Origin: a virus
DNA length: 56,420 nt
Virus record (IMG/VR): IMGVR_UViG_3300005548_000485
Location: 1-56,420 of that record
Strand: one strand, 5' to 3'
The notes below the pieces were generated by a model that was not told the origin of the DNA, ran no database searches, and saw nothing but the letters and a program-made list of their open reading frames with translations. Shown here piece after piece: positions 1 to 56,420 of this stretch; position 1 is the stretch's first letter, and each line of letters opens with the position of its first letter. The position numbers were made by a program, and so were the translations under genes.

Positions 1-582
1 ATGATTGTAGCGGTGATTGACAACGTGCGGCTGGCGGTTGACTGTCGTTTGTGGATTCTGGATGTTGTCAAACCCAGGCGTCCATTTCTCCTGAATGCCA
101 TTACCGGGGCGGTAGCCCTAGAAGATGCGCGCCTCGCCAATCTCGAACAGTTCCGATGACGTGACGCTGAGCGCGGGATACATGGCGATTTCATAGCCGA
201 TGATCGGAGTCAATCCAGCATCGAACGCCCAGATGATTGCCCGTGATCCGTCATCAAGCTAGACCACAACTGATGTCTACGAATTTCCGCCAAGAAGATA
301 GGGGAAGTTTGAATCCCCAGACCGCTTTCCTTTGATTGTGACCACCATGCCAATAGGAAGCGTGGTGCCTAAGAAACAACCGCAGCGTGGAACAATTGGC
401 GTTGACCATAGCGCCTGCAGGGTAACGACTGCGGTCGATGTAGACGACCAGGTGAAGCGGGTGACATCGGAAGGCGCCGAGTTGTCGAGCACGATGTTGC
501 CAACAAAGGCTGCGCCCCCCGTAATGGCATAGCTCACGCCTGCCGGTGCGCCATAGCCGAATAGGGATGATCCAGACATCAT
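1..582 (-). CDS. Tail-tip region protein, partial at the window edge, amber-interrupted
   Basis: The frame opens at ATG 582, overlapping the TAA of the preceding gene (ATAATG), with a GGAG just upstream. It runs off the window after about 194 codons. TAG occurs in frame at 277-279, 259-261 and 118-120, with normal-looking sequence between them. I recognise no domain. Its place as the last gene of the tail operon suggests a tail-tip or receptor-binding accessory protein (inference). If the molecule is circular, the frame would continue into the complement of the right end and stop at TGA after 12 more codons. Confidence 0.7.
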
Positions 583-3392
583 TATCTCCAACAAACAAGC
601 AGGCAGCTTTGCATAGCGGGGTTCGGATCTACGGCGAAGACAAAAACCTTTGCCCCATCCAGACCGTACCGCCGTGACGTTCCGGCTGAGTTGAGCTTAT
701 AGGTCACCTTGCCAACATCGCCGACATCATATTGAGTTCCTGGCGGCATCTTGACTGTGATCTGGAAGAACTTGCGCGTGTTCACCGCTAGGGCAACTGT
801 GCGCTCGGTTTCTGCCTACATATCGGCCTTAAGGTCGAATAGCGTTTCACGCGGAACGTTAAGCTATGCCTGACCGTACATTTCGCTGAGTTGCACGCCG
901 CTGGTATAGGTAAACTGATAATTCCTTTCCAGCAATTTACGCTCGGCGATTGACACGTCCGTGGTCGTCATGTTCGTAAAGTCGCTCTCTGACGCAGGAG
1001 AGATGTTCTTTCGACCATAGGTGCCAGTCGTCAAGCCCTGCATGACATCGGGATAAACGTAAGGCTCCAAGAGGATGTCGTTCTCGTCGATCTCCCAATT
1101 CACATCCGCATCCGCTACGGTATCCGGATCAATCAGACGAACGACGCCCATTCGTCCATCACGTTTGCGATAGATGGATGCGCCGAACGTGTCAAGGGCT
1201 GGCTGTAGTGCCTACTGAACAGTGACGGGCTGATTCGAGAACCAGTTGCCGATCTGGTAGCCTGTAGCCGCATCGATCGCCCGTGCCTGTATTGGGTCCC
1301 ATTGGCTTTCATCGATTCCAGCGCGTGTTAGCACGGCGCGCATATAGTCTTCTAGGCCGACGCCTTGCAATGGGGCAGCATTGATCGCGTCCGGCAACTC
1401 GTAAAGCACCACACTGCGAATCCACCACGACCCGCCGTTACCATCAACGAAGTTCAAGCAAAGGGGTAGATCAGCGCCGGAATTGTTGGTGAAGCTGATG
1501 GTTGCCGTGGCGGGACAATCGGTTGCGTACGGCTGAAGGTTAAGGCCGGTATTAAAGAACACCGCATTGCATACACCGCCAGCCGCGGCAAGTTGAGGCG
1601 CTCCAGGCTTTCCGCCGGAATCCGTGAACTGAGAATAGTACATCCCCGACCAATGATTTACAGATCGGTACTGGTATTGATCGTGATGCCCGTCTAAGAA
1701 GAAGTGCGCAAGAACCGAGGTCGTGCTATCCAACGGCTGCTGAGTCGCCATGTATGGCGCATCCCAAAACTTGATCTGACAGGCATAGGTCTTACCGTTC
1801 TGCACAACATTGGTCTTGGTCCGGAATCCGATGGCGTAGTTCTGCGGACGCAGGGTTGTCGCATAAAAGTTGATCAGGACGGAACCATTGGAGCCAGATA
1901 GGCCGCCGGTATCATCCACACCGTCAACATGGCCGCCGCCAAACTCGTCAAACCAGCAGGGGCGGTCACCATTGGTATAGGAATCATTTCCGCTCCAATA
2001 GGTTTGCCAGTTGGCTTGCCATACTGCCGGAGTCGTCTAACTGCCGAAGTCGCCATGACCACTGAGCAAATCGGTTGGGCCAGGCGGAATTCCCTGCACT
2101 ACCCCGCTAGCCTCTACGGTCAATTTTCCTGTAGGCGCAGCCGTGAGAGTGATTCGCATGCCGTCAGCGGACAACGTATAGTCCGTGCCGAATACAAGCA
2201 GCTTGCCCTATACCCTAACCGCACCAATTGCACCTATTGCACTATCGCTAATGCGGTAGACATGGTTTACCGGGTCTTCACACACCGGCTCGAAATTGCG
2301 CGCCATGCCGATAAGAACCGGAACCGGCGTATCCACCACGCTAGAATCCTAGTTCGGCAGAAAATAGGTCGTGTTGAACGGCTTTGATAAGAATTCCGCG
2401 ATCGGATCGGCCATATAGATAACCTTGGCCTGGTCGCCTTTTGTTTCCACTCGATCCAGGATGACGGTATCTTCAAGCTATGCGCTATCGTAGCTGCCGC
2501 TCTGGTCTACCGTGCTCAACTTCATCGCCGCATTGCGATGATCAAGCATGAAATCATATGTTCCGTCTGGGTCTTCTAATGCCAGCGTGCTCAGCGATGA
2601 ACCGAGCCGGCTATCGCCCTTGTTCATCCAGAAGTCCGCGCCGCGCGGGAAGACCATCGAATTGTCTGGAATCAGGGCGCCATTGACCGCATCAAAGCGT
2701 TGTGATGGCAAGCTGTCGGATGGCTGCGAGAGATATGGATCGGTCGCAAGATAGACCGATGCGGGCTATGCGGCAGCATCCCACCAGCCCTGCACATTGG
2801 TGTTGTTCTCAAATGTGCGCTGACCTGCATTGAAGAACGTCTGCAACGAGAACGCGGAGCCGCCAGCAACCGTGATTGCCGGATACCATGCCGCCGTGTT
2901 CGTGGTGCTCGCGAGATACGTGCCGATCGTCGTGCTGCCATTGAGAACGGTGATCAAAATCTGATTGTTGTCGAAGTTGACGCGGAAGTAGACGAGATCG
3001 CCTTTCGCACAGGCAGTGAATGTGGCCACTGCCACGCCATTGATGTACAACTTGCCATCATCTAGGCGGAAGCCAATACCGTTCGCATCCTCGCCGACAT
3101 ATTTGTTGGTCGGCGCACTTGCATTCACGATTCCGATGTATACGGCGCCTAACGAACCGTTGGTTAGCGATCCACTACCCCATGTCAGCGTTTCAAACTA
3201 GCTGATCGTATCAGACAGAGGCACTGTGCAACGACACATACGGTGCGAGTTCGCGCCGCCAGTATTGCAGGCAAGGATCGTCGCGCCATCGCTGATATCC
3301 ATCGATGCATCAGTATAGGTGTTATCGAGAATCGAATAGAGCTGTCGCATAGTGAATTCGATTGATGCGGTTAGAGTGCGAGGTACGGTCAT
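582..3392 (-). CDS. Large tail tip/hub protein with SPRY-like segment, amber-recoded
   Basis: This single frame of about 936 codons runs from ATG 3392 (ATGA overlap with the preceding gene) to TAA 582-584. It contains nine in-frame TAGs at 3198, 2766, 2478, 2349, 2208, 2037, 1212, 864 and 816 (lowest base of each codon). I read the stretches between them and saw no TAA or TGA. Residues about 85-190 resemble a SPRY/concanavalin-like fold (GFRLDDGKLYING). The C-terminal third looks like a phage tail hub protein. In the standard code it would be ten fragments. Size and position after the tape measure gene suggest the central tail fibre or hub (family inference). Confidence 0.78.
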
Positions 3393-5263: not shown

Positions 5264-5649
5264 TATGAGTACAAAATCCTATTACCTGATTCATCGACAA
5301 TGAAGTTGTTATATTCGTCAATGATCGCGTTATCCGGCTCTGATGAGATGATCACGAATGTGATCGTGATGCTTGCGCGGACGCGGTCTGAATTGCGCGC
5401 TGTCAGCATGACGGTATAAATGCCTGCGGTTGTGAGGTTATTGCTAGAAAACGTGATCGAGTCGGATGTCTTCGTAGGGTCGATCGACGGCGGCAACGTG
5501 CCGGTAATGGTGAATGTATAAGGTGGAGGCGTCGGACTGACCGCCGTGAAGATTGCCGAGTACGTCTGTGTTGTCAGGCCGGTTGGTGCGCTTCCATGTA
5601 TCGACATGCCGTCGAACATTTCACTGATGACAATGCGGGGGACGATCAT
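5263..5649 (-). CDS. Ig-like tail protein
   Basis: A 128-residue frame with no amber codon, ending in TAA 5263. Residues about 25-105 have the Pro-rich opening and alternating strands of a bacterial Ig-like (He_PIG-type) fold (YTFTITGTLPPSID, then GIYTVMLTARNSD). Such domains decorate phage tails and capsids and aid weak adhesion. Its ATG overlaps the tape measure stop codon. Confidence 0.65.
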   Translation of the reverse strand: MIVPRIVISEMFDGMSIHGSAPTGLTTQTYSAIFTAVSPTPPPYTFTITGTLPPSIDPTKTSDSITFSSNNLTTAGIYTVMLTARNSDRVRASITITFVIISSEPDNAIIDEYNNFIVDESGNRILYS

Positions 5650-8600
5650 GCCGGCAGCGAAAAGCGAGGTGGCTGCGTGGTGCGTGGACCGCTCAATGCC
5701 GCCGCAGATTGCCGCGTGGTTTGAGTCGTTAGCGCACTGGCGATAACCCTCGCGGTGTTTTGTGTTGCTCCAGTGCCATTATTGATCGCGGCGATGATCC
5801 TATCCGCAATGGCGTTGAGCGCCGTGGAATTGTCCGCAGGCGCGGATTGTGTAGGCACCGGCTTGCTGCCAATTATTCCATCAAGTGTACTGAGTGCATT
5901 GATTGGCTTGCCCTGCAATGTGGCCAGAATATCGGCTAGATATTCGTTCGCCTTGATCGCTGCCTGAGCCTGCAATTCGGCCTGCTGGAATTGCTTGTTG
6001 AGATCACTGCCAGAAAGGCCAAGATCGGTCGCAAACTTATCCAATGGGATGCTGAACTGCTTTGTCAAGTCGTCAAGCGATTGACCAGTGATTGAACCGA
6101 TCTATCCGAGATTGGATAGGAGTGAGGTCGCATCCGCCAGCCGTTGCAGCGCTGCCGCCTAAGCGTTCGCCTGATCGATCTGATCCTGAATCGCTTGCTC
6201 TTGCTTGGCGAAGAAGGGCACCAACTGAGATGCGGTATACGGGTCCACGCCGGCAAGACGCGTTTTGTCTACAGCTTGCAGATCGGTCAATTGCTTGGTT
6301 AGGCGATCAATGTCTGTACCGTAGAGCTTCGTAGCAAGCTGCTGCGTCTGATCTTCAAACGCCTTAAGCGCATCGACGCCGGCCTATGCGGAGGCAGTAA
6401 TGATCTTTGCAATATCCTGCTGAGAAGCGCCAGCCATGCCGGCGGCCTTCGCCAGATCATTCGCCTTTTGGATATTGTCCGTCAGCGTGCCGTGTAGGCC
6501 AATCAGCGAGTTCTCAAACGCCGTGATGCCGAGCGTCTTCGGATCGAACTATGCGACGAAGTCGGAATAGCTCTTCATCGCCGCAGCTTGCGCCGCCGCG
6601 TCTGCCTGGGCCTGTTTCGTTGCCGCATCTGCCGCTTGGCTCATATATGCGGTCAGATTGGCGAGTGCGTTCGCGCCAGCAAGCCACTGCAGCACCTATT
6701 CCGGTGTCAGCGTTGGGAGTGCCGCCTCAAAATCTGCACGGAACTTCGCCATGCTTTCGGCGGGGTCTTCGCCGATAACTTGGAAAGTATCGGTAACGGC
6801 CTTTTGCATCGCCTTGAGCGCATTCGCCTGCCTCTCGGAATCGGAATAGTAGGCGTTGTAATAGCCATCCCAAGCGCTTTGCAGGTTCTATAGGCCGCCC
6901 GCCATGGTGACTAGCTTGTCCGTGAATTCGAGGAAGTCAGCCCCCGTCTTGCCCGTCGTCAGCCCCAACGTGTCAAGAATGGTCTTGAACGTCTGCTGCT
7001 CGGTCTGCAATCTCGAATAGGTCTGCGAAAGAGATTCATTCTGCAACTGCAGCTTCTGAACTTCTTTCGTGATGTCCGCAAGGCTGCCATTGTCCCCGAG
7101 CAAGCCGATACCCTTGTTGATATCAACCTGCGCTGAAAGTAGCAGGCTGGTGCCGTCTAGCAACGCATCCGCAGATGCGCGCCATTGATCGGCGATCTTC
7201 GAAGCGTTCTATGCGGCGGGAAGCAATGCCAGCAAGTTCTCAGCGGTGACGCGCTCCGCGAACTGCTGCATCGTTTCTTTGTATTTCTAACCGAGCACGG
7301 TCGAATAGGCATCGAGTACCTTCCCATCCTTATCGAACTTCTGATAGAACGAGCCAGTAATCAGCGTGCCGACCTTGCCACCAAGCGCATCTGCGCCAGC
7401 GGTCACCGATTTCAGGATGCCGGAGAAAAGCGCATCTGCGGCAGCCATCTAATCGTCGGTCGCGGCGAAGTCTTTCCAGCTATAGGAATTTCCGCCGAAA
7501 AAGGCTTCTTTCTTTTTCGTTTCGTACTGATTTTGTACGGACGCGCTCTCTTGGCCTAGAACAATGTTCTAAGTCGTATTGCCCGTAGGCTTCGCGGCCG
7601 TGCCAAACAAGTTTCCGCCAGAGAGCATGTCAATGGCCATTGCGGCCAATGCAATCCAGCCCACCACGGGAACTGCCGCGAACGCGCCAGATACGCCAGC
7701 AGCAAATCCACCGCCCGCGGCAAGCGAGCCGAGGCCGCCGGCAAGGGCATAGGTGCCCGCGCCATACGCCGCCCCTCCTGCGAGGCCGGCGAGGCCGCCG
7801 CCAGCGCTCTAGTATCGGTTGTAGCCAGCATAGAGGCCGCCAGCAATGCCAATTGCGCTCCCTAGCCCGCTATTCGTCCAGGTCGTCGTGCCGTTATCGG
7901 TGACGAAATTGCCCATGAAATTGCCGCCGACACCGCTACCGCCAGCACCATTCCAAAAGGTGCTGAATCCAGACCAGAGATTCTTGCCTGCATTCACCCA
8001 GGACGAGGCGGAGAAGATCGATGATATGCCAGTTGAACCACCAGCAACGCCACCGCCGCCCGCAATCGCGCTACCCAGCGTCGGCAGCAGATTGAATCCT
8101 GCAGATTGGCCGCCGCCAAAAATTGCATTCAGAATCGGATTGATGACCGCGAGCTTAGCGAAGTATTCAATAATCGCCTAGACGGTTTGCTTGGCCAGGT
8201 TAACAAGGCCGTCGAATAGTGAGCCGCCATTGACCAGAATGCTAGCAAAGGTGCTCGCCAATCCATCGCCTGCAGTTTTCCAGACATTTTGCCAGTCTCT
8301 CGCCGCCTCTTCGCCGCGCTTTGTTTCTTGTTTCAGCAACTCAAGTGACTACACGCGCCCAAGCTCTGCATCAATTTCGTCTTGCTGCGCCTGAGTCAAT
8401 GGCCCCATTACGCCCTCAAGTGCTTTTGAGATTTCCGCCTACGCCTTAATCGTGGCATTCACGATATCTCGCTGGTCGGAATTCAGCCCCAGCGTTTGAG
8501 TTTCTTGCGCTATTTGCGTATCGAGATCGCCAAAGACATGAAGAAGATTCTCGTTTGCATCAGTCTATTCGCGCAACGAACGGGTTGCGAGTTGGGTCGC

Positions 8601-10361
8601 GTCGGATATGAATTGCTGGACCCTGGCCTGATCCATTCCATCCTTGATGAATTTAGCGGAAAGGGCATTAATCTTTTCGATTGCTGCACCGTATTCCGCC
8701 CATGCCTTCGTATGCTTATCTGCAGTTTTGGAAGACAACTGATCAAGAAACGAGGCAAGCTCAACTCCGTCCTTGGCAAGCTTCTCAGCCTGCTTTTCTG
8801 CGTCGGTCATGGCCTTCGCAAGGCCATTGAAGTTTGGCGTTGCCTGTTTCGCCTTATCTCCCGCATCTTTCACCGCATCAGCGGCAGCCTTATGCGCGCC
8901 ACCGGCCTTGAAGGCGGCTATTGCATCATCAGCCATAGCGGAAGTTGTTTCGTGAATGGCCGAAACGGCCTTGTCAGACTGCGTATTTACGTCTGAAATC
9001 TCTTTCGCGTAATCACGGCTAGAACCAACGGTTTTGCTGATCGCCTGAGAAAGCACCTCAAACTGAATGGCAAGAGTGAGATTTCCGCCGTATTGCGCGA
9101 CCTTTGCCGCGTCATCGAGTAAGGAGGCGATCTTGAGCTTGATGTTGTCGATTGAGTCAGAGACTACCTTTTCGACATACAGCCACGAAACTTGAGCGCC
9201 CTGCTTAATGCGCTCCCACGCGCTTAGAATGCCATCGACAAGCGCAATGCCGCCAAGCTTTGCCTCCAAGAAGTTTTCTTCAAGGTATTTTCCGAACTCC
9301 CAGCCAGAGACGGCCGCAGTGACAACGGCCAAGCCGCTTTTCACGGAAAGGAGTGAGCCATTCATCAGCTAAAGCGATCCAGCCGTCACGGTCGCCGCGG
9401 CGCCCATAGAGGCTATCGTGCCAGTAATGAGAGTAAAGCCCTGAGCAATAACGCTAAATGCGATGCGCGAACCAATGATGACGGCGAACTTGTCAAAATT
9501 GTCTACCAGGACGCCGATCGCGCCTGCGAAACGCTGGATCGTTCCGTCCTCACGCGCGGATTTGATGAATTCGAGCACCCTTTCTTCTGCCGAAATCAAG
9601 ACTGGCAATAGTTCTTTGGCAATATCCACGCCAAGACCGACTGCCGCACCCTTGAGGCGCGTCAAATTGTCGTTGAATTCTTCTGATGGCTTCGCGATTG
9701 CGGCGAAATCAAGGCCAAGTTGCTTTGCTTCCTTGGAGAGCTTTGCGATTTCCTCACTTCCTGTGTTCAGGAATGGGATTAGTTCGGCACCAGATTTGCC
9801 GAATAGCGCCATTGCCAGCGCCGTCTTGTTCGCATCGTCCGTGAACCCTTTGAATTTGTCCGATACCTCGGACACGAGCTGCGCTGTAGGCTTAAGTTTT
9901 CCGTTTGCATCATTGAGGCTAACTCCAATTGCGGCGAAAGCAGCAGCCTATTCCTTACTACCACCCGCAGCGGCAGATATCGCCTTGTTGAATTTCTCAA
10001 GCCCGGACCCGAGGGATTCGATGCCAACATCCGAAAGCTGCGCGGCATAGACGAGGCCCTGGAGAGAATCGACGCCAACGCCAACTTTCTGCGCCATCTT
10101 GTTGAGTTTGTCGCCAGTCTCGATCGCTTGCTTTGTCACTTCGCCCAAGCCGGCGGCGAGAGCGCCAAGACCTAGCTAGCCAGTACTTAGGCCGGTCAGG
10201 GATTTCACCGCCTCAAGAAGGCCTTCTTTCGCACCGTCCGCCGTCTCGTTGATCGAGTCACGGATTTCCTTCATCGCCTTCTGCGCCTCTTTCGAGGCGC
10301 GCTAGAAGTCGGTGGTAAAAGACCCGGTAATCGCCTTGAGATCGAAAACAATTGTTGCCAT
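5646..10361 (-). CDS. Tail length tape measure protein, heavily amber-recoded
   Basis: One frame of 1572 codons from ATG 10361 to TGA 5646 contains at least 19 TAGs: 10302, 10176, 9948, 9369, 8565, 8439, 8349, 8178, 7809, 7569, 7449, 7287, 7209, 6888, 6696, 6549, 6384, 6159 and 6102. The N-terminus is Ala/Lys/Glu-rich and helical (SKEAQKAMKEI). Long coiled stretches flank a Gly/Ala hydrophobic block near codons 780-890, as expected for a protein that fills the tail tube. Position after the frameshifted chaperone pair is the standard tape measure location. A conventional call would yield many spurious fragments. Confidence 0.9.
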
Positions 10362-18356: not shown

Positions 18357-19429
18357 TTGGCAGCGTCCAGTTTTACCGGTGTGGACGGAACATACGCCGT
18401 ACCGGCAGGACCGCGCTCGCCGTCACGCCCCTTGCGAACGCACAAATACCAATCGTCGGCATTCTCCGGGCATGGCTTGCTCGCATTGTCGCGTTTGGCG
18501 ATCCAGAATGAGCCGCCATGCGTCATGCCATCACCAGCCTTGCATGCCGTACCTTCACGCCAGTAACCGCGCTGGCGAATGCCAACGGCGGGATAGCGGA
18601 ATTCCTTCATCTCACCAGCAGCGCTCCACCGTTCGATGATTTCGCCAGTCTCACCATCATAGGCAAGTTCGCGGCCCTCGACACTTAGACCGTCTTTTCC
18701 ATTCGCGCCATCTCGACCAGCCTCGCCATCCTTGCCGACGACAGGGCCGAGCGTCTTGACCGTGCCATTGGTGAGTGTGACGACAAGCTGGCCATCGCGA
18801 TCGATGATTGCGCCGCCAAGACCAACGCCATCGGCGCCGGTCTCGCCCCTTTCTCCCTTGGCACCCTGCGGACCCGGAACGCCGTCTGCACCATCCTTGC
18901 CATCCCTGATCGGATGCTCTTTGAAATATTCGGCAACTCCTGAAGCGACAATCAAATCGATAACAACTCGTATCTCGGGAGACTTTGAAAGCTCAATGGC
19001 AAGGGCGCGCATATCGACTGGAGGTGCGTCCTTCCCCGGCTCGCCTTTTTCGCCCTATGCTCCGATAGCGCCATCTGCTCCGCGCTCACCCTGCGGCCCC
19101 TATGGACCGATTTGGCCGTGTTCGCCAGCAACCCCAGGATCGCCCTTTTCTCCCTTGAGAGAATCGGCAGATTTTTCGAAACAATCCTTGACCGTCGCCA
19201 AAACCGCTAGATCGATATGCGATTTGATCTCGCCCATGTCCGCGTCGCGTCCGCGATCACCTTGCGGACCAGTTTGGCCGGTTTCGCCTTTCTCGCCCTA
19301 TGGACCGGGAAGCAATGCGCGGGATTCCACAGCGATAAGCCGTGCTTCCATTGGCGCCAAGCGTTCCTAAATCAGCGCCTTGACTGACCGCGCCAGTCCC
19401 TTGCCAAATTCAACGGGATCGAAATTCAC
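18353..19429 (-). CDS. Collagen-like Gly-X-Y structural protein, four amber codons
   Basis: 358 codons from GTG 19429 (AGGAG 8 bp upstream, GTGA overlap with the portal stop) to TGA 18353. TAGs at 19367, 19298, 19100 and 19055. Three of the four fall at the Y position of Gly-X-Y triplets (GP-x-GEKG, GP-x-GPQG, GA-x-GEKG), where Gln, Lys or Arg are usual. Collagen blocks trimerise, so this is likely a head fibre or a surface spike near the neck. The C-terminus contains a Cys/Trp-rich domain. Confidence 0.78.
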
Positions 19430-20835
19430 GCGGCTAACTCCTATTCAAATGCTTTTTGCACGTCATAGGCGAAAGCCTTACCGGTCGCCTGGTCTTGGTT
19501 CGGATCGGCATTCGCCGGAGGTCCGCTAACAGATGGGTCGGGATTGGCGGTCGGGCGATCAATGACAAACGGATTGGGCAGAGAATCGCGTTTGGCGAGC
19601 GCTTCGAGGCTAAAGTTCTGCTGCTGCATATATACCGTATCGCCGCCGGCAATCTTGTCGCGATCCATTTCCTCGCGCGCTTCGTTGACGGTCAGGATGG
19701 AACCTTTCACCCCCTCGCCAAGCGTGCGCATCTATGTTGCCGTATCCATGCGGAATAGACCGCGCAAGTCGAGGTCAACGCCTAGTTGTGTGCTGCGCCC
19801 GTTGATAGTGACCGCCTCGCCGATGCCGAGCCCTTCATCCTGACAAAGCTCGTATTCTTCGATCAAAGATTGCAGGCAATCCGAATAATAAATTTGGTTC
19901 AATACTTCGCCGTTTTGGTAGGTCGGCATCTGGCCGATACCCACCTTGAACGCTGGAACATGGAAGGCGGCGCAGACCATTTCCGCGGTCATTTTCAACT
20001 ATTCGATGAGTTGCGCATCGGCGCTCGTCATGACCATCGGTTCATACTTCAAGCCATCGCCGAGTACGGCGATCTTGCCGGAATTCACACCGGTAAATTT
20101 TTCTTCCCATGCCAGCTTCAGGCGGTCAGCGGTTTCCTGGCCGATTTGACCGGGCGCAGTCAGCACGCCAGATGGACGCGCACCATTCGCAAAAAAACTA
20201 CGGCTGGAATTCTGGATCGCGATACCCTGCGCCGAAGGTACGCCGGCAGCGTATAGCGGCGAGATGCCGACCAGCGGATGAAACAGACAGTTCATCCGGT
20301 CATGGATGATCTCTGATGCCGGAACTAGGATTTCTTCCGTAACACCGGAAAGGTTATCCGTGTGAAGCTGATAGTAGACCTGGCCATCTGGCGCAACGAG
20401 TGGCAAAACGCGGCGAGCATCGAGAATGTATTGCTGAACCACGATGCCGCGAGCATCGCGCTCAAGCAGGGCATACGTATTTCCGAAAACCAACTTGCTC
20501 ATCGCCCACCATTCCTTAAACTGGATATGGTTCTGATAGCGATTCGGTTTGCGAATGACTGGCGAAAATGCCGAACTCGTCGTTTCCTTCCAGATGTTCC
20601 CGCGTTTTTCGACAAGGCGAGGACGCAATTTACCGAAGTCATTTGAAATCAATGTGACGCATGCATATGCCGCGTAGTAGGACAATTGTCCATCTACCGT
20701 CTGCGATGCGTTTTGTTGCCATGCGCCGGGAAATGGTTCGCGCACAAGCGGGAGCCAGCCGCGACTATCGACCGACTATAGGCTACCCGGTACGGACTTC
20801 ACCAGCCCGCCAAGCGCTTGAAAAATGTCAGGCAT
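19426..20835 (-). CDS. HK97-type portal protein, four amber codons
   Basis: 469 codons from ATG 20835 (MPDIFQALGGLVKSVPGS) to TGA 19426. TAGs at 20776, 19999, 19732 and 19441. The HK97 portal pattern is clear: YAAYACVTLISNDFGKL, RYQNHIQFKEWWAMSKLVFG, VGISPLYAAG and FFANGARPSGVL. Read in full it has the normal length of the family. The portal is the dodecameric DNA gate of the capsid. Confidence 0.92.
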
Positions 20836-27238: not shown

Positions 27239-27315
27239 TGGCGGGCGCGCTCCGATTCGAACGGAGATCGAGTGACTTTAGAGATCACGGCATTAAACCG
27301 TTATGCTACGCGCCG
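27239..27315 (-). tRNA. Amber suppressor tRNA, anticodon CUA, glutamine-like acceptor
   Basis: A full 77-nt cloverleaf. Acceptor CGGCGCG/CGCGCCC has only pair 1-72 unpaired. D-arm GCAT/ATGC, anticodon stem GTGAT/GTCAC with loop CTCTAAA, T-arm CTCCG-TTCGAAT-CGGAG, discriminator G, encoded CCA. The anticodon CUA reads UAG. A weak 1-72 pair, G2-C71, G3-C70, G73 and U35 are established glutaminyl-tRNA synthetase identity elements, so it is most likely charged with Gln. It lies in the leftward late operon, between the lysis and head modules. Confidence 0.92.
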
Positions 27316-54553: not shown

Positions 54554-54790
54554 GTGACTGCGCAACTTATCTCGTTGGAAGATTGGGCCGCGTCCGTCTA
54601 CGGCGGGAAGGCGCCATCGCTGTACACTCTGCGGCGCTGGGCGCGTGACGGCAATATTCAGCCCAAGCCGGAAAAGCACGGCAGGACGTACTTTGTCGTT
54701 CCTGGCGCATCGTACAAGGCAAACCCATATGGCAGGCGTTCGCGCCTACTGGACCGCGTGAATGTCACCGCACCCAAGAAGTGTGCGTAA
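54554..54790 (+). CDS. xis: Excisionase
   Basis: 78 residues from GTG 54554. Winged-helix excisionase pattern: ISLEDWAASVYGGKAPSLYT, LRRWARDGNIQPKPEKHGRT, YFVVPGASYKANP. It overlaps the integrase start by 29 bp, as in lambda. Directs prophage excision. Confidence 0.88.
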   Translation: MTAQLISLEDWAASVYGGKAPSLYTLRRWARDGNIQPKPEKHGRTYFVVPGASYKANPYGRRSRLLDRVNVTAPKKCA

Positions 54791-55850
54791 CCGAAAGCTT
54801 CCGCCTGGATTGCGTGTTCGCGACGGGTATTTTTCGTGGCGACACCCGGAGACGGGCAAGGAATTCGGCCTTGGTCGCGACCGCGATAAGGCAATCGCCG
54901 AAGCCAACGAGGCGAACATTCACATCGCTGGCGTTGCCGGTCATGTCAGGCTCGTTGACCGGCTCAGCGGACAGTCGGACCATTCGCTTGGCGCGTGGCT
55001 GGATAACTACGAACGTTTGCTGGCCTCACGCAAGCTCAAGGCCAACACGCAGCGATCCAACAAGAGCCGTCTGAAACTCATTCGCTCAAAGCTCGATCTG
55101 TCACTCGCAATCGAGCGCATCACCACAAAGATGCTAGCCGACTTTCTCAACGGACTGCGCGCCGAAGGAAAGGCGCGTACAGCGCAGGCGATGCGCTCGC
55201 TATTGCTCGATGTTTTCCGCGAGGCCGTGGCGGATGGATGGATCGAAACAAATCCCGTTCTCGTCACGCGCAACGAATTGGTCGAGGTGCAGAGAGCGCG
55301 CCTCACCCTTGATGTGTATCTGCGCGCCCGTGAAACGGCGACAGGTTGGATGGCGAATGCGATGGATCTGGCGATTGTCTCAGCCCAACGTCGGGAAGAT
55401 GTCGCGGACGCCAAGTTTCCCGACTTCCACGATGACGCATGGTTCTGCGTTCAGGGGAAAACGGGTAACAGGCTTTGCCTGCCGCTTTCCCTGCGCCTCG
55501 CGGCGGTGGGGCTATCGCTGAGTGACGTGCTCAGTCGGTGCCGCTCTACGGGCGTCCTGAGCCGGTTCCTGATCCATCAGACTCGACCGCGCGGCAACTC
55601 GAAGGTCGGATCGCAGATTTGGGTTGATACCATCACGCGGCATTTCAGCGCCGCTGTCGAAGCGCTTGGCATTGATTGGGAAGGGAAGACGCCGCCAACG
55701 TTCCACGAAATCCGCAGTCTGTCGGAGCGCCTGTACGCCGAGCAGGGGAACGTGAACACACAGGAATTGCTCGGCCACAAAGACCCGAGAATGACGGCTG
55801 TTTACCACGACTCGCGCGGCGCAGAGTGGGTTAGGGTCGCAGTGCGGTAA
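54762..55850 (+). CDS. int: Tyrosine integrase (lambda type)
   Basis: 362 residues from ATG 54762. N-terminal arm-site DNA-binding domain (LPPGLRVRDGYFSWRHPETG), SAM-like core domain, and catalytic domain with the first Arg in VSAQRREDVADAK, HEIRSLSERLYAEQG, and LLGHKDPRMTAVYHDSRG with the tyrosine nucleophile. All key residues are present, so the phage should be able to lysogenise. The attachment site is not identified. Confidence 0.93.
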   Translation: MSPHPRSVRNRKLPPGLRVRDGYFSWRHPETGKEFGLGRDRDKAIAEANEANIHIAGVAGHVRLVDRLSGQSDHSLGAWLDNYERLLASRKLKANTQRSNKSRLKLIRSKLDLSLAIERITTKMLADFLNGLRAEGKARTAQAMRSLLLDVFREAVADGWIETNPVLVTRNELVEVQRARLTLDVYLRARETATGWMANAMDLAIVSAQRREDVADAKFPDFHDDAWFCVQGKTGNRLCLPLSLRLAAVGLSLSDVLSRCRSTGVLSRFLIHQTRPRGNSKVGSQIWVDTITRHFSAAVEALGIDWEGKTPPTFHEIRSLSERLYAEQGNVNTQELLGHKDPRMTAVYHDSRGAEWVRVAVR

Positions 55851-55862
55851 GGAGGAAAAAGA

Positions 55863-56420
55863 ATGCCACGTCAACGAATCTTACATAACGCAAGACTGCC
55901 CAAGGGTCTGCGGTGTCGCGATGGCTACTATTCCTTCCGAGATTGCTCTGGCAAAGAACACGGCCTAGGACGCGACGAAGCGGAGGCGGTCAAGTTCGCC
56001 GATGGCATCACTGCGACTTATCCGAACGGGTTTGAGAGGGTCGCAAAGCATTCGGCTCGGGCGATGACTAATTCAGCATTTTCTGAGATGGCCATGCGCG
56101 CATTTTCATTCATGGTCACAAGGGCGAAAAAAGACGGTCGCGAAGTGATGTCCAAGGATGAATTTCTTGAGCTATGGCGCGGATCGTATGGGATGTGCGA
56201 ACTAACCAGAATCAGGTTTTCAGCGCAGCGCATGAAGGGCTGCACAAAGCGGCCTTGGATGCCAAGCGTTGACCGAAGGGATTGCTCGAAAGGCTACACG
56301 GCGGACAACTGCCGCTTAGTATGCGTTGCGGTGAATTTGGCCCTGAATGAATTTGGCGATGCCGTGCTTATGCAGATAGCCAGATCAATGCTTGCTGCCG
56401 GAAAACTCAGGGTTGCTTAA
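55863..56420 (+). CDS. Integrase-like arm-binding domain fused to HNH-like domain
   Basis: 185 residues from ATG 55863 (AAGGAGG upstream) to TAA at the last base. Residues 10-45 (LPKGLRCRDGYYSFRDCSGK, then EHGLGRDEAEA) match the integrase N-terminal domain of the preceding gene. The C-terminus (YGMCELTRIRFS, then PSVDRRDCSKGYTADNCRLV) is a phage HNH-like module. It may compete for or act at att arm sites. The catalytic status of the HNH is unclear. Confidence 0.75.
   Translation: MPRQRILHNARLPKGLRCRDGYYSFRDCSGKEHGLGRDEAEAVKFADGITATYPNGFERVAKHSARAMTNSAFSEMAMRAFSFMVTRAKKDGREVMSKDEFLELWRGSYGMCELTRIRFSAQRMKGCTKRPWMPSVDRRDCSKGYTADNCRLVCVAVNLALNEFGDAVLMQIARSMLAAGKLRVA

Follow-up and report, generated by a model that had tools for sequence, protein, structure and literature searches.

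An Integrase Arm-Binding Domain Fused to a PacI-like HNH Nuclease beside a Phage Integrase: A Likely Homing-Type Endonuclease Aimed at attP Arm Sites

Introduction

Odn (Gp88) of Vibrio phage ICP1 is derived from a homing endonuclease gene (HEG); at its N-terminus it shares 42% identity with the RepA_N domain found in its target, whose origin it cuts (PMC8263062). The modules that have been described for HEGs include zinc-finger, AP2 and RepA_N domains, and it has also been noted that the HNH protein of phage HK97 cooperates with terminase at cos (PMC10448857). In the open-licence literature, nothing relevant was found on fusions of a nuclease with an integrase arm domain.

Such a fusion is described here at the end of an IMG/VR virus record of 56,420 bp, the whole of which is referred to below as the window. 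No near relative of the whole-window DNA was found in the phage collection. It is likely that the fusion gene encodes a free-standing homing-type HNH endonuclease, with a recognition module from a phage integrase, aimed at attP arm sites.

Position and Architecture of the Fusion Gene

The final three genes of the record, all on the plus strand, encode in order an excisionase, a lambda-type integrase and the fusion protein. The excisionase-like gene (Exc, 78 aa, 54554–54790) matches PF07825 (E 1.4e-12) and phrog_629 (E 2e-17). The tyrosine integrase (Int, 362 aa, 54762–55850) matches PF09003 and PF00589 and is 42–43% identical to the Int proteins of lambda and HK022, its arm-binding domain occupying aa 1–56 (54762–54929; PF09003 E 7.9e-14). 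The fusion gene (185 aa, 55863–56420) begins with an ATG 12 nt past the int stop, with a GGAGG ribosome-binding sequence (55851–55855) in between, and its TAA stop is the last codon of the record.

Two regions can be distinguished in the protein, both on the plus strand like the gene itself. The integrase arm-binding module covers aa 1–47 (55863–56003), and the PacI-like HNH (ββα-metal) nuclease region covers aa 58–177 (56034–56393). The latter includes the invariant Asp-Arg of the nuclease family, D137-R138 (56271–56276; alignment A11), and the invariant Asn, N158 (56334–56336; alignments A1, A4 and A11); D137/R138 of the window correspond to D136/R137 of L040, a prophage locus in a Burkholderiaceae MAG. 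The original prediction that about 45 N-terminal residues match the adjacent integrase and that the remainder is HNH-like is borne out on both counts: residues 2–47 align with Int 3–49 at 51% identity (24/47, BLASTP E 7e-12), and residues 59–177 match phrog_3322, annotated as "endonuclease" (E 6e-17), as well as phrog_3118 HNH. The 185-aa protein gave no match to the PF00589 catalytic core, nor to an Exc, AlpA or MerR-like winged-helix domain, Exc being a separate gene.

The late genes of this phage appear to read TAG as an amino acid. The portal gene (4 in-frame TAG; phrog_2271 E 6e-128), the tape measure gene (19 TAG) and a 936-aa ORF (9 TAG) are open only under TAG readthrough, and the window also encodes a tRNA whose anticodon is CTA; the tRNA and these genes lie at 27239–27315, 19426–20835, 5646–10361 and 582–3392, all on the minus strand. 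The int and fusion genes have no in-frame TAG.

Arm Module of the Fusion Protein

The arm module scores 113 in pairwise comparison with the Int arm, with a Z of about 20 against the shuffled background. In the PF09003 (Arm-DNA-bind_1) search, Int is clear at 51.9 bits, whereas the fusion protein is marginal at 22.2 bits against a cut-off of 22.0; some 45 of its residues also align with the solved arm domain of lambda Int, 1kjk (E 0.002). Since the Int of a Providencia phage is about as close to the module (53% over 46 aa) as its own neighbour, the module belongs to the same arm family and is not a recent copy. The structure model predicts a β-β-β-α topology, with strands at residues 16–19, 22–26 and 32–36 and a helix at 39–52, and has a pLDDT of about 75–80 over residues 11–40.

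Nuclease Domain and Its Family

PacI is the nearest solved structure to the nuclease family: a 24-row family profile matches it with an E of 1.1e-6, and the structure model of L040 does so with a Z of 9.0. The invariant Asp-Arg and the distal Asn align with DR and N of PacI, which we take to be the active-site residues of that enzyme, and D, R and N are retained in all members in the family alignments. An earlier fold search with the first structure model, which was built from a 4-row alignment and was too poor in its nuclease half, returned nothing. For the single pair L057 and L096, two of the viral loci described below, dN/dS is 0.026 in the nuclease domain and 0.42 in the arm part, and the former value indicates that the nuclease is maintained.

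In named phages, family members occur as free-standing genes next to those for the portal, DNA polymerase, thymidylate synthase/dCMP deaminase, head–tail adaptor or major capsid protein, and their N-terminal module is zinc-finger-like or absent; such settings are the usual picture for free-standing homing endonucleases (compare PMC10448857).

Genome searches suggest from sequence that the family is rare; the sole close member in the Burkholderiaceae sample was the one already known. L046–L053 from this sample were set aside, being larger proteins with different N-termini. Two HNH proteins among them (L050:856–1806 and L053:1033–1773) show a weak N-terminal resemblance to the SAM domain with which tyrosine recombinases bind the core (PF02899 E 0.08 for L050). 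In addition, L095:4968–5612, from the same nuclease clade, has a C-terminal AlpA domain (PF05930 E 8e-11) in place of the arm module; AlpA is another DNA-binding module from integration control, and the integrase of L095 lies about 16 kb off.

Recurrence of the Hybrid at int and att

When the window HNH or Int was scanned singly against the viral and genome collections, no match emerged, and searching DNA directly for the fusion with a degenerate pattern was equally negative; further hybrids were located by scans with family alignments. The two-domain protein is no singleton: as had been proposed for checking, it was sought beside other integrases and recurs in four other viral contigs of IMG/VR (L056, L057, L058 and L096), within about 200 bp of int and of the tRNA att core. 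Among 35 viral records searched for PF00589, an integrase core adjoins the nuclease only in these four arm-HNH loci, the core being absent or distant in the remaining records. L040 is probably also an arm-HNH gene at int/att, whereas the gene in a Thiocystis MAG (L041), 32 bp from a tRNA-Arg, is cut off ahead of its N-terminus.

The position relative to the core varies. The HNH end lies some 20–40 bp from a tRNA-His 3′ half in L040; in L058, about 13 bp separate it from a tRNA-Arg 5′ half. In L056, L057 and L096, a tRNA-Ser or tRNA 3′ half stands between int and HNH, which places the gene beyond the core; it is therefore not always beside int after integration. The tRNA-Ser between int and the arm-HNH gene of L056 is complete (L056:644–733), and the contig looks to be in the attP form. 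An ORF just upstream of the L057 integrase (L057:1926–3041; IMG/VR record 2634166272_000003) resembles a reverse transcriptase.

Arm-domain matches in Halomonas H4907 and Pseudomonas MR15 were rejected, since these proteins have integrase length (386 and 392 aa) and are not nuclease fusions. A search for the window Int in 369 genomes from the class to which the Burkholderiaceae MAG belongs, run with no positive control, was negative.

Matching of Arm Modules to Local Integrases

The arm modules differ in type from locus to locus. Both proteins of the window pair carry PF09003; the nucleases of L057 and L096 carry Arm-DNA-bind_2 (PF12167, E about 1e-12), as does the L057 integrase; the type in L058 is unnamed. 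When the arm of each nuclease is scored against the Int arms, the values within the own locus or clade are 113 for the window, 125–128 for L058 and 139 for L057, while off-diagonal values are mostly 21–56, with 79 for L058 against the related Int of L056. All loci have nuclease domains that are related to one another (Z 25–47, and 113 for the L057/L096 pair), whereas the arm modules are near noise across most of them. Because the nucleases are related throughout and the arms match the local Int type, a single nuclease lineage with several targeting modules is indicated, and sequence comparison argues that the targeting module has been acquired repeatedly.

The match is to the clade and not to the neighbour alone. 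The L056 arm scores 77 against the Int of the relative L128 and 51 against its own Int, and the L058 arm is about equally close to every Int of its clade (117–128, L114–L124); the modules are therefore clade-matched, not recent copies. Among the 30 Int-arm columns that are invariant in the L058 clade, the HNH arm keeps 21, and in 10/25 variable columns it holds a residue seen among the Ints. For L040, no sequence similarity was detectable between the N-terminus and its own Int; only its predicted succession of three strands and one helix matches the window module, at low confidence. Integrase arm domains were absent from the L040 fold list, in which this low-confidence half of the model was barely tested.

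Empty Sites in Gene-Free Relatives

Relatives of the L058 integrase were collected with the aligned integrases of L058 and L056, and most are 57–94% identical to L058 Int; the L058 locus itself is L114 in this comparison. Nine relatives (L115–L121 and L123–L124) are gene-free. At the int stop they have TTTGCGGAG repeats, either direct or inverted, the first at +1 to +14 (0–13 bp), followed by the tRNA core at about +80, and the attP-form contigs have two more repeat copies near +162 and +221. In L115, L117, L118 and L120, all TTTGCGGA copies of the 7-kb locus fall in the region of repeats behind int. By their position and conservation, the repeats are read as putative arm-type sites.

In L058/L114, the gene fills 553 bp exactly between the int stop and the first TTTGCGGAG repeat, and the distance from repeat to core is 79 bp both there and in the gene-free L115–L118 and L120. 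The arm repeats persist in L058, but the insert parts them from int. Set against the empty alleles of L115–L121, this is the precise insertion expected of a free-standing HEG, in an arm type unlike that of the window; among all observations, the comparison with empty sites carries the most weight. L125 carries an unrelated HNH_3-AP2 gene (L125:4121–4744; PF13392 E 2e-15, PF00847 E 1e-3) at the same int/arm-site boundary, with the arm repeats beginning right behind it, and L126, whose Int is 86% identical, is empty there. In both L058 and L125, the nuclease frame continues through the repeats. A nuclease occupies the site in 3/14 integrase relatives with readable downstream DNA, i.e., its presence is sporadic.

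The L056 gene has the tRNA-Ser core on one side and the arm-type repeats on the other, the HNH stop being about 7 bp short of the first repeat. These downstream repeats keep the spacing seen in the gene-free L128 (122 and 61 bp in L056, 121 and 62 bp in L128), and L056 has no counterpart of the plus-strand site of the first inverted pair in L128. The GGAATC[AG]AAC repeats behind the HNH gene in L057 and L096 may be arm sites, though they are tRNA-core-like. Between L114 and L115/L116, the DNA identity falls toward the junction; this region varies in all relatives, and the drop is only suggestive of co-conversion of the flanks.

Proposed Mechanism and Alternatives

The arm module would bind the arm-type sites that the integrase uses in attP, and the PacI-like HNH would cut beside them, at the int/arm-site boundary of gene-free related phages. 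Repair from a gene-carrying genome would then copy the gene into the cut site; alternatively, the cut might merely disable the attachment site of a competitor. The carrier would be spared, because its int and arm site are held apart by the gene where the cut would fall. We infer DNA binding, cleavage, the position of the cut, homing and self-protection, and likewise that the copies in the window and in L058 act alike. Direct support exists for the two-domain architecture and its recurrence, the repeated acquisition of arm types, the position at int/att and, in a relative, one precise insertion with intact empty alleles. The gene also has the marks of a HEG, i.e., a HEG-type nuclease class (phrog_3322/3118, PacI-type fold), a separate DNA-binding module (by homology) and sporadic presence. 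Homing is favoured because the insertion is sporadic and precise beside the predicted site and its position is shared with an ordinary HNH_3-AP2 HEG.

The strongest alternative, to which we give slightly less than an even chance, is a domesticated HEG kept, in the manner of Odn, for destroying attP in rival temperate phages or satellites that use the same arm sites, and not for homing. The captured targeting domain is of the same kind as in Odn (PMC8263062, PMC10448857), the nuclease is under strong purifying selection in the one pair L057/L096, and the arm modules resemble the Ints of the clade in general, beyond the neighbour. However, a sporadic, precise insertion by the predicted binding site, at a position also taken by an HNH_3-AP2 HEG, is what homing predicts, and destruction of attP by itself does not require the position between int and the arm sites. 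The two functions are compatible and not exclusive, and interference is a possible second role of a homing endonuclease.

The original prediction offered two functions, regulation of the direction of integration or cutting at att, and the second is the better half: the L058 gene abuts the putative arm-type repeats, and gene-free relatives show the site intact and empty. A regulator, in which the arm module would compete with Int for arm sites while the HNH is structural or assists strand exchange, is improbable. The arm module is of the same type as that of the local Int, the spacing to int is tight in the window, L058 and L040, and HNH partners of phage machinery exist, as in HK97. Yet most close Int relatives do not have the gene and keep complete attP structures, the gene sits on either side of the att core, the window has its own Exc gene, and the nuclease residues D, R and N are kept in all members, with strong purifying selection in the pair L057/L096; the direction-of-integration half is not sustained by these observations. 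That the gene is a chance remnant, a non-functional chimera from a one-off recombination of int with a nearby HEG, is very improbable, because although the window protein barely passes the PF09003 cut-off, the architecture recurs with different arm types, the frames are open throughout, dN/dS is low in one pair (L057/L096) and the start signals are good.

Significance and Comparison with Known Systems

More broadly, the loci tentatively point to a class of attP-directed nucleases, in which a single HNH lineage would repeatedly acquire arm domains from several integrase families and use them to cut rival temperate phages at their attachment sites; we regard this extension as possible, though rather doubtful. 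If it is true, integrase arm-site specificity would be a battleground that may drive the turnover of arm sites and int alleles. The fusion as read here would show a second, independent route to Odn-like action, i.e., a selfish nuclease bearing the address label of another element's key protein, for lysogeny and not for replication. The comparison yields test pairs, in which gene-carrying and gene-free members belong to one integrase clade, together with a predicted cut position and a reason why arm-type sites and the int–attP boundary may evolve fast.

The fusion protein shares parts with several known systems. Like the lambda Int arm-binding domain (PF09003), its N-terminal module aligns over about 45 residues, but no core-binding or catalytic recombinase domain follows it. 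It shares the ββα-metal HNH core and the D-R … N pattern with the PacI restriction endonuclease, which has no integrase-type module. The free-standing HNH endonucleases of phrog_3322 (PaMx28, AAT-1, PA11 and IME346) have the same nuclease domain family; unlike the fusion gene, they neighbour structural or metabolic genes instead of int/att, and their N-terminal module, where there is one, is a zinc finger. The HNH_3-AP2 homing endonucleases likewise combine HNH with a small three-stranded β-sheet DNA-binding module, and one occupies the same position in L125, whereas the fusion has a different HNH family and an N-terminal module related to integrase arms rather than to AP2. Odn and the Odn-like RepA_N-T5orf172 nucleases are alike in joining a HEG-type nuclease to a domain from a protein that binds the target site (PMC8263062, PMC10448857), a relation that is here drawn by homology. 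Unlike Odn, which directs a T5orf172 nuclease with a replication-initiator domain against satellite origins, the fusion combines a PacI-like HNH, not T5orf172, with an integrase arm domain, presumably for attP, and it sits at its presumed target.
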